Of a stretch of DNA of 64,000 nucleotides, positions 2,996-22,540 are shown one piece after another; within the stretch, counting starts at the first letter, position 1, and every line of letters begins with the position of its first letter. Position numbers and translations under genes: made by a program. This stretch comes from a bacterium (lineage in GTDB: Bacteria; Myxococcota; UBA727; JAUIJE01): positions 372,001 through 436,000 of the forward strand of contig JAUIJE010000007.1 of NCBI GenBank assembly GCA_030431455.1, in the 5' to 3' direction. The notes beneath the pieces were generated by a model. It did no database searches and had not been told where the DNA came from. It saw only the letters and a list, made by a program, of their open reading frames with translations.

Positions 2996-3553
2996 TCAGG
3001 AGCCGGTGCTGGAGACCGGCCCGATGCCCGACCCAATGCTCTGCACCTGCCCCGTCTCGGGCCGCTGTTTGCGCATGACCTTGAGGGTGTCCTCGACGCC
3101 GGTGTCGGAGGCCTTTTCGACCTCGAGCAACCGCTCGTGGGTCTTGAGCACACCCTCCATCTGGCTGAGGAACTGGGCGCGCTGGCGTTTGGCCTCGGCG
3201 ATGTCGGAGAGCACCTCGGTGAGCCGCTCTTGGGCCTTTTCCACGAGGCGCTCGGCCTCGAGCTCGGCCCGGCCGATGATGATGTCGGCTTCTTTTTTGG
3301 CGTTCTCGGTGATTTCTTCGGTCACGCGCTGGGCGGTCACCATCGTTTCCTTGATCGCTTGTTCTCGCGCTTGGAAGTCGGTGATCGTGCGTCGCTGGCG
3401 GGCGGTTTCTTCGCGCAGCTCATGAAGTTCGCGGTTCAACCCCTCGACATCTTGGGCGACGAGGTTGAGGAACCGATCGACCTCTTCCCGGTCGAGGCCC
3501 CGCCACACGACGGCGAAACGTTTTTGCTGAATGTCCAAAGGCGTGATGGTCAT
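2996..3553 (-). CDS. divIVA: DivIVA domain protein
   Basis: The 185-residue protein opens with the DivIVA signature (TPLDIQQKRF and GLDREEVDRFL in the first 30 residues), then has a long coiled coil rich in E, K, Q and R to about residue 150 and a flexible tail. DivIVA proteins bind negatively curved membranes at poles or septa and recruit division, chromosome or wall-synthesis factors. I chose the ATG at 3553, which has GGAGG seven bases upstream; the reading frame stays open further upstream only because it crosses the 49-bp repeat array. It is followed at 6 bp by the DUF167 gene. In deltaproteobacteria this short DivIVA form is usual, and its precise partner is not evident here. Confidence 0.9.
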   Translation of the reverse strand: MTITPLDIQQKRFAVVWRGLDREEVDRFLNLVAQDVEGLNRELHELREETARQRRTITDFQAREQAIKETMVTAQRVTEEITENAKKEADIIIGRAELEAERLVEKAQERLTEVLSDIAEAKRQRAQFLSQMEGVLKTHERLLEVEKASDTGVEDTLKVMRKQRPETGQVQSIGSGIGPVSSTGS

Positions 3554-3768
3554 GGGGCCTCCGCTTGTCGCTCGCCGATGAGCATAGGGCCGCCGCGGGC
3601 CCCACGCGAATATTCGGCCCCAATTTGTCGGGCACCGGCCCCACCCGGGGTGCAGGTGGGAGCGGCACGGCCCAGGTGGGTCGTACGGCCCCCGACGGCG
3701 CCTGCACACGATGCGTCCGGCGCGGGCGTGCATCGGTCTGCGCGGCCCGGGGAGTTGCGTACTGTACG

Positions 3769-3990
3769 GGACCGGTCGGCCACCCACGAACGGTTGCGCG
3801 CCCGACGTCCTGTACGGGACCGGTTGGGCCACCCACGAACGGTTGCGCGCCCGACGTCCTGTACGGGACCGGTTGGGCCACCCACGAACGGTTGCGCGCC
3901 CGACGTACTGTGCAGTACCGGTCGGGCCACCCACGAACGGTTCTGCACCCGACGTACTGTATAGTACTGGTCGGGCCACCCCCACCCCCG
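3769..3990 (+). repeat. 49-bp tandem repeat with covarying hairpins
   Basis: Units begin at 3781, 3830, 3879, 3928 and a partial one at 3977, each exactly 49 bp apart and sharing the phrase CCACCCACGAACGG. Each unit junction carries an inverted repeat. Units 2-3 have GTCC-TGTACG-GGAC, while the last two have GTACTG-TG-CAGTAC and GTACT-GTAT-AGTAC, so both arms change together. The arms extend outward as CCCGAC pairing with GTCGGG, or with GTTGGG through a G-U pair in plus-strand RNA, with a two-base CG bulge. No reading frame explains it. It occupies much of the 585-bp gap between proC and divIVA; 3554-3768 and 3991-4138 show nothing else I recognise. Confidence 0.9.
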
Positions 3991-4138
3991 CCCTCATTGG
4001 GTGGGCGGCAGACGCCCACCCGCCCGCCTCGGGGGCAAGCCTCTCTCGGCCCGCGCGGGGCGCGGGGGTGGCGGTGAACGTTCAACTGATGTCCGAAAAG
4101 CGCCCCGCCCGGTTGCGGCGGGCCTGGCAATACCCCGG

Positions 4139-4936
4139 CTAACTCTTTGACATCGCGCGGCTTTTTTCTGCGGCCGCCGACACCGCGGACCAGATCGCGT
4201 CCGCGCCGTTCTTCTCGGTCAGCGCGCGCAGGCCCTCGATGGTCGTGCCCCCCGGTGACGTGATTTCCGCGACCAAGGCGCTGGGGTCTTTGCCGGTCTG
4301 CTCGAGGAGCGCGGCCGCGGCGGTGAACGCGCCAGCCGCGTACAGGCGGGCCTCCTCCCGCTTGAGCCCGAGGTTGACCCCGGCCGAGAGCATCGCGTCG
4401 GCCAGCGCGAGCACAAACGCCGGGCCCGACCCGGCCAGGCCGATGACCGCGTGCAAGCTCTCCTCCGACGTGAGGAATCCACACGAACCCACTGCTTCAA
4501 ATAACATTTTGGCCCGCGGGCGGTCCTGGGCCTCGTCGCACCGCGGGCCGAGCACGACCGCGGTGGTCGATTTTTGGACCTGGGCCCCGGTGTTGGGCAT
4601 GGCCCGGGACAGGCGCGCGGTGGGCGCGGCCTCGGCCATCGCCGCGAGGGTCACGCCCGCGGCCACGGAGACCAGCAGAGCGGCCGGGTCGCACAACCGC
4701 GCGACCTCGCGCAGCAGCGGAACCGTCGCGTGCGGCTTCACGCAAAGCACAATGACTTCAGAGTCTTGCACTGCTTCTTTCAAGTTGTGAGCGACCTTGG
4801 CGGACGCCCCCCCGAGCGCGACCGCGACCTTGTCCGCGTGGCGGTCGTACACGCTGAGCGCAAAATCCGCGCGACCGGCCAGCCCGCGCACGAGGGCGCC
4901 GCCCATGCCGCCACAGCCGATGATGCAGGTTCTCAT
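4139..4936 (-). CDS. proC: Pyrroline-5-carboxylate reductase
   Basis: The 265-residue enzyme catalyses the last step of proline synthesis, reducing pyrroline-5-carboxylate with NAD(P)H in the cytoplasm. It has the Rossmann GCGGMGG loop (residues 7-13), MPN (113-115), SGP (170-172) in the dimerisation helix and the family signature SPGGTT (227-232); length is normal. Two patches use codons unlike the GC-rich neighbours (around 4486-4506 and 4750-4792, including TTA, CAA and GCA). It starts 9 bp after the yggS stop in the same orientation, so the three genes maf-yggS-proC appear to be one operon. Confidence 0.95.
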   Translation of the reverse strand: MRTCIIGCGGMGGALVRGLAGRADFALSVYDRHADKVAVALGGASAKVAHNLKEAVQDSEVIVLCVKPHATVPLLREVARLCDPAALLVSVAAGVTLAAMAEAAPTARLSRAMPNTGAQVQKSTTAVVLGPRCDEAQDRPRAKMLFEAVGSCGFLTSEESLHAVIGLAGSGPAFVLALADAMLSAGVNLGLKREEARLYAAGAFTAAAALLEQTGKDPSALVAEITSPGGTTIEGLRALTEKNGADAIWSAVSAAAEKSRAMSKS

Positions 4937-16421: not shown

Positions 16422-16600
16422 TCCGGACGGCTGATTTCCCAGTATTTTTAGATGGTTAGGGGCTGGTGGCGCAGGTCGTTTGTGCCGGCAAACGGATGTT
16501 GTGAACGCGCGCGGCGAGGCCAGTCGGGACGAGCGACGGGCGGGACAGGTGTGTCCCGTCGGGGTGGTGGTTCAATGTTTGGCCCCACCCTAAGAAGGGC

Positions 16601-16893
16601 CCCAGCGTCGGCTGCGCCGCCGCCTTGGGGCTTCGAGTTTGCTTCGCAAACGTCGGTGGGGGGCCCCAGCGTCGGCTGCGCCGCCGCCTTGGGGCTTCGA
16701 GTTTGCTTCGCAAACGTCGGTGGGGGGGCCCCAGCGTCGGCTGCGCCGCCGCCTTGGGGCTTCGAGTTTGCTTCGCAAACGTCGGTGGGGTGGCCCAAGC
16801 GTCGGCTGCGCCGCCGCCTTGGGGCTTCGAGTTTGCTTCGCAAACGTCGGGGCCGGAGCAAGCTCCGGCTTGGCCCAACGCGTCGCGTTGGGC
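16601..16893 (+). repeat. 64-bp tandem array of hairpins with three-base loops
   Basis: Four near-identical units begin at 16601, 16665, 16730 and 16794 (64-65 bp spacing). Each contains CGGC-TGC-GCCG and GTTTGC-TTC-GCAAAC, both perfect inverted repeats with three-base loops. The array ends in two larger hairpins: GCCGGAGC-AA-GCTCCGGC (16852-16869) and GCCCAACGC-GTC-GCGTTGGGC (16873-16893). It sits in the convergent gap between the MshEN gene and the gene ending at 16949; 16422-16600 additionally has GGGACA-GGTG-TGTCCC. Open frames crossing it only reflect the repeats, so I do not call a gene here. Confidence 0.9.
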
Positions 16894-22085: not shown

Positions 22086-22140
22086 CAGCTCACGATTCGC
22101 AAGCTCATCGAGTCGCTGCTCACCCCCGAGGCACGCCTCC

Positions 22141-22540
22141 AAGGGCCTCCGGCCCGTCGTCGTGGGTCGTAGGCTTCGCCTACGACAAGGTTGGGTGGGC
22201 TCAGCTCGACCCGGACGTCGTGGCCATTCCAAAGGAATGGCCCAAGCAACGCGAAGCGTTGCCATGCTCCAGGCGCCTCCGGCCCGTCGTCGTGGGTCGT
22301 AGGCTTCGCCTACGACAAGGTTGGGTGGGCTCAGCTCGACCCGGACGTCGTGGCCATTCCAAAGGAATGGCCCAAGCAACGCGAAGCGTTGCCATGCTCT
22401 AGGCGCCTTCGGCACGTCGCATCGGGTCGTAGGCGTCGCCTACGACGAGGTTGGGTGGGCTCACACCGTGGCCATTCCAAGGGAATGGCCCAAGCAACGC
22501 GAAGCGTTGCCGCCCGCACGTCGTGGGTCAGAGGCGTCGC
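22141..22540 (+). repeat. 130-bp tandem array of composite hairpins
   Basis: Three units repeat every 130 bp (landmark hairpins at about 22167, 22297 and 22427; the third has a deletion). Each unit carries, in order, GTCGTAGGC-TTC-GCCTACGAC, GGCCATTCC-AAA-GGAATGGCC and CAACGC-GAA-GCGTTG, all perfect inverted repeats with three-base loops. Loops vary (TTC to GTC, AAA to AAG) while stems stay complementary. It fills the gap from the DUF4388 gene to the operon at 22617; 22086-22140 and 22541-22616 show no feature beyond a possible promoter region. Frames open across it are repeat artefacts. Confidence 0.9.

Follow-up and report, generated by a model that had tools for sequence, protein, structure and literature searches.

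A hairpin minisatellite in an enlarged proC-divIVA gap, with arms possibly kept matched by template switching

Several classes of described repeats resemble the tandem array analyzed here, which lies between proC and divIVA in a genome of the Myxococcota (assembly GCA_030431455.1). All coordinates given without a contig handle refer to the window, the 64,000-nucleotide stretch of DNA that was analyzed (contig JAUIJE010000007.1, positions 372,001 to 436,000, forward strand). Bacterial intergenic minisatellites, or VNTR loci, are alike in being tandem, non-coding in appearance, of a period that is not a multiple of 3, composed of slightly diverged units and confined to one lineage, whereas at the present locus the individual units are palindromic and their changes maintain the pairing. 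Clusters of intergenic palindromes are also typical of REP and BIME elements, but here a single locus is occupied in place of many dispersed ones, and no match to PF01797 (Y1_Tnp), the family of REP-associated transposases, was found in the genome in a search in which the positive controls gave matches. In quasipalindrome correction, several bases of one arm change together and become the reverse complement of the opposite arm (PMC8794818, PMC7202029, PMC8604942); changes that may be of this kind are seen here too, although between the units of a tandem array, in one genome and without ancestral reconstruction. A 28-bp palindromic repeat at regular spacing recalls a CRISPR array, which is ruled out because the 21-bp spacers are themselves repeats, identical in units 1 to 3. 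An integron attC site, prompted by the GTTGGGC end, was set aside given that the palindrome comprises only 28 bp.

Tandem Repeats Finder detected a 49-bp period at 3758-3981 on the plus strand, with 4.6 copies, 92% matches and a score of 336, so that the start at 3769 given in the first-pass annotation has to be moved to 3758. The copies are arranged head to tail between two genes (the proC stop is at 4139 and the divIVA start at 3553), and their length falls within the 10-100 bp range of minisatellite units. When cut at CGT[AC]CTGT, the units correspond to 3758-3805, 3806-3854, 3855-3903, 3904-3952 and 3953-3981, with a first step of 48 bp, steps of 49 bp thereafter and a truncated unit 5. 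At every full unit joint there is a 28-bp palindrome (CCCGAC-GTNC-TGTNNN-GNAC-CG-GTYGGG), after which comes the spacer; spacers are conserved to the same degree as arms. Palindrome 1 (3758-3780) is without the outer left arm, has lost one base and carries the mismatched inner arms GTAC/GGAC. Palindrome 2 (3801-3828, CCCGACGTCCTGTACGGGACCGGTTGGG) and palindrome 3 (3850-3877), which has the same sequence, possess the inner arms GTCC/GGAC, whereas these are GTAC/GTAC in palindrome 4 (3899-3926, CCCGACGTACTGTGCAGTACCGGTCGGG), in which 12 of 12 pairs are Watson-Crick, and in palindrome 5 (3948-3975, CCCGACGTACTGTATAGTACTGGTCGGG); all five are given on the plus strand. The annotation had described five units at exact 49-bp spacing. 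Five palindromes and the 49-bp period are indeed present, but the palindromes follow each other at 48, 49, 49 and 49 bp; since the base lost from unit 1 sits between its right arm and its spacer, the spacing is 49 bp throughout when measured on the spacers. A separate perfect hairpin (GGGTGGGCGGCAGACGCCCACCC, 3999-4021) is located shortly past the array.

The array is located in a gap of 585 bp (3554-4138; 73% G+C), of which it represents 38%. On one side is divIVA (2996-3553; PF05103, E 5.7e-37), which starts with MTITPLDIQ at 3553 and has an N terminus that matches those of relatives, and on the other is proC (4139-4936; PF14748, E 8.3e-29), encoding pyrroline-5-carboxylate reductase. Both genes, like their neighbors maf, yggS and yggU, are on the minus strand. 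Five relatives, compared at the level of the order, possess adjacent proC and divIVA genes, and their gaps measure about 5-80 bp and are devoid of the array (about 21 bp in G006 and 64 bp in G002 and, from coordinates, at most about 49, 35 and 5 bp in G037, G019 and G020, respectively). However, the two genes were not seen side by side in the stretches retrieved from G003, G008 and G010 of the same order, and this adjacency is therefore not universal. The earlier suggestion that the array separates an otherwise tight, conserved operon thus applies to the enlargement of the gap but only in part to the conservation. Among the genomes compared, the enlarged gap that houses the array appears to be particular to its lineage. 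The array sequence itself was not detected elsewhere: at up to 3 mismatches, the palindrome occurs in its own 7.7-Mb genome only in this array and at one chance-like site, a 98-bp array query retrieved nothing from 194 other genomes of the phylum, and a DNA search of GTDB contigs, plasmids, phages and viral contigs identified no homologue of the array.

Covariation of the two arms of a hairpin is usually taken as proof of a selected RNA structure. At this locus, the replacement of GTCC/GGAC by GTAC/GTAC on both arms, as reported in the first-pass annotation, is borne out by palindromes 2 and 3 versus 4 and 5 but is broken in palindrome 1. It amounts to a single base pair, C-G to A-T, among four distinct sequences, and a two-sided change of one pair was reached in 263 of 500 shuffled controls, which the palindrome thus does not exceed. 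The annotated outer stem, CCCGAC/GTYGGG, was found as described and is G-U compatible on the plus strand only. All one-sided changes of the palindromes likewise result in G-U on the plus strand and not in A-C, a weak pattern that involves about 6 non-independent sites.

A second hairpin, mutually exclusive with the palindrome, joins the right arm of each unit to the spacer. In unit 4 it corresponds to GTGCAG-ACCG-TCG ... CGA-CGGT-CTGCAC (3910-3948, plus strand), and the spacer cluster CTGCA of this unit, which reads GCGCG in units 1 to 3, is the reverse complement of TGCAG within unit 4. Over both hairpins, 25 of 26 pairs are Watson-Crick in unit 4 compared to 19 of 26 in unit 2, the pairs having been chosen after unit 4 was seen. 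Random substitutions at the same eight positions matched the pairing of unit 4 over these 26 post hoc pairs in 0.24% of trials. Because the pairs had been picked in this manner, the comparison was repeated with free folding, for which the fold energy was computed over all 6561 substitution sets for units 2 and 4, on two strands and with RNA and DNA parameters. The observed units were in the lowest 2.4% and 0.6% for plus-strand RNA, 8% and 8% for minus-strand RNA, 4% and 6% for plus-strand DNA, and 8% and 19% for minus-strand DNA. The differences between units 2 and 4 are thus likely to preserve pairing, modestly and on very few events. Two of these differences are clusters of five bases, each of which corresponds to an in-register reverse-complement copy of the opposite arm: ACGGG to GCAGT, matching GTACTG, and GCGCG to CTGCA, matching TGCAG. 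Each cluster fits a single copy of this type, with matches that are too short to decide.

Hairpin arrays are not restricted to this gap. In the 2.36 Mb that were sampled, corresponding to 31% of the genome, about 14 such arrays were observed, which look non-coding by eye and are for the most part unrelated in sequence, and some of which are located at contig ends. Contigs C4 and C6 begin inside tandem arrays, and C6 also ends in one; the assembly probably breaks at tandem repeats and may understate the copy numbers of arrays. Contig C4 contains 28 perfect hairpins with a stem of at least 10, versus 7 in Markov control sequence. Of the arm covariation observed in this genome, the clearest example, much stronger than that at the proC-divIVA array, is a 42-bp array at C8:404358-404506, which begins within the last part of one gene and occupies the space up to an apparently convergent gene. 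Units 1 and 2 of this array are identical; between units 2 and 3 there are four differences, which together make up two compensatory pairs in the stem AACCCATTTC/GAAATGGGTT. Four random substitutions generated this pattern in 15 of 400,000 trials (P of about 4e-5; below 0.001 after correction for about 14 arrays). Covariation is cited here for individual arrays only, as compensatory changes, when counted systematically in every tandem array, gave a mixed picture, with periods divisible by 3 also yielding double changes; arrays with such periods are likely to be mostly coding and are likely to be more diverged.

We estimate at about 0.6 the probability that the proC-divIVA array is a lineage-specific hairpin minisatellite in a near-neutral gap, in which template switching keeps the arms matched. 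In this scenario, slippage or unequal recombination would have generated head-to-tail copies of a self-complementary sequence in the gap, and replication template switching between the arms of the imperfect palindromes, that is, quasipalindrome correction, would then copy one arm into the other. Arms would in this way change together in the absence of selection for an RNA or an operator, and the operon would be affected, if at all, only indirectly, through a longer gap that decouples divIVA from proC. We infer the switching step, the order of these events and the near-neutrality of the gap. This reading was preferred in view of the restriction of the array to one lineage, its broken first copy, the lack of structure above chance in the operon-sense strand and the similar behavior of unrelated sequences elsewhere in the genome. 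Of the three options offered in the first-pass annotation, namely an operator array, an RNA-level element and a repeat source, the last provides the best fit, given a local minisatellite in a genome with many unrelated non-coding hairpin arrays. Template switching can create stems and may help to maintain them (Monttinen and Loytynoja, PMC8794818), and it yields compensatory stem changes, although short matches have little statistical power (PMC8794818) and the clusters of the array comprise only 5-6 bases. Selection for the hairpins would leave the same footprints as template switching, and the data do not separate the two.

Strand and folding data bear on the idea, which we regard as quite unlikely, of a gap-spanning antisense RNA whose tandem hairpins are maintained by selection. 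Its best evidence, which is not accounted for by template switching, is the fold excess of the plus strand together with the G-U pattern of the variable palindrome pairs: as plus-strand RNA, the array folds better than shuffles (z = -2.82; -1.59 as plus-strand DNA), whereas minus-strand RNA shows no excess (z = -0.09). The plus strand is, however, antisense to the operon, whose genes proC and divIVA lie on the minus strand, and the operon mRNA would therefore carry the strand that is without excess structure. Tandem hairpins trivially fold well on at least one strand, the palindrome covariation does not rise above shuffles and relatives lack the array. Furthermore, a promoter scan found no promoter-like site, and an Rfam search of the array at a permissive threshold retrieved only two microRNA matches far below the gathering score and no convincing family. 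The RNA-level option of the annotation is thereby weakened. The same fold result for the minus strand is relevant to a transcript-end or insulating element, in which the hairpins stop or protect the minus-strand proC transcript and thus separate divIVA. The enlarged gap and the common orientation of the two flanking genes are compatible with such a role, as is the fact that another array, at C8:404358, starts in the end of a gene. But the hairpins here are without a U-tract, whereas ordinary terminators consisting of a hairpin and a T-run are present elsewhere in the genome; the region after proC shows no fold advantage over shuffles on the minus strand, and a terminator scan called none in the array, its one terminator-like site being outside the array, within proC. 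This role is hence considered unlikely.

Control of divIVA, which is downstream on the minus strand, by a dimeric DNA-binding protein that recognizes the 28-bp palindromes would account for the dyad symmetry, the regular spacing and the location upstream of divIVA, in a gap enlarged enough to leave additional promoter room. Apart from the chance-like site mentioned above, however, the genome contains no related single site for a regulator. Palindrome 1 is broken, the end of the array nearest divIVA is still about 200 bp upstream of its start (3758 versus 3553), spacers are conserved as much as arms and many unrelated arrays of like style exist in the genome. The operator option, for which no positive support was obtained, is therefore judged to have a low probability, comparable to that of the antisense transcript. 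By far the least probable is a coding repeat, whether it is translated as additional N-terminal residues of DivIVA or as some other peptide. A minus-strand frame is open from 3997 through the array into divIVA, but five of the six frames are open, as expected for G+C-rich sequence, and with a period of 49, which is not a multiple of 3, each unit would be read in a different frame; moreover, relatives align from MTITPLDIQ onward and have their upstream genes tightly spaced.

Under the preferred reading of a minisatellite with template switching, the proC-divIVA array and the clearer one at C8:404358 are natural test cases for covariation that arises from template switching without selection. 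Until a transcript or a binding protein is shown, the proC-divIVA array should be annotated as a minisatellite, and not as an operator or a non-coding RNA. At C1:9508-9611, a 20-bp hairpin array changes from GCAACGC/GCGTTGC to GCAACCC/GGGTTG between units, with matching changes in both arms. It is possible, though less likely than not, that the non-coding hairpin arrays across this genome (proC-divIVA, C8:404358 and C1:9508) keep their arms matched while their units diverge, as a result of either hairpin-templated mutation that is unusually active or selection of hairpins as a structural class. The window contains two further arrays, which are among the about 14 counted above. One of them, intergenic in appearance, is located at 16597-16850 (65 bp, 3.9 copies) and carries the hairpin GTTTGCTTCGCAAAC, which is also found in the array that opens contig C4. 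The other, at 22137-22511 (130 bp, 3 copies), contains the hairpins GTCGTAGGCTTCGCCTACGAC, GGCCATTCCAAAGGAATGGCC and GCAACGC/GCGTTGC, and related modules are also present in an array at C16:114677, which suggests a family of dispersed hairpins that has no REP transposase.
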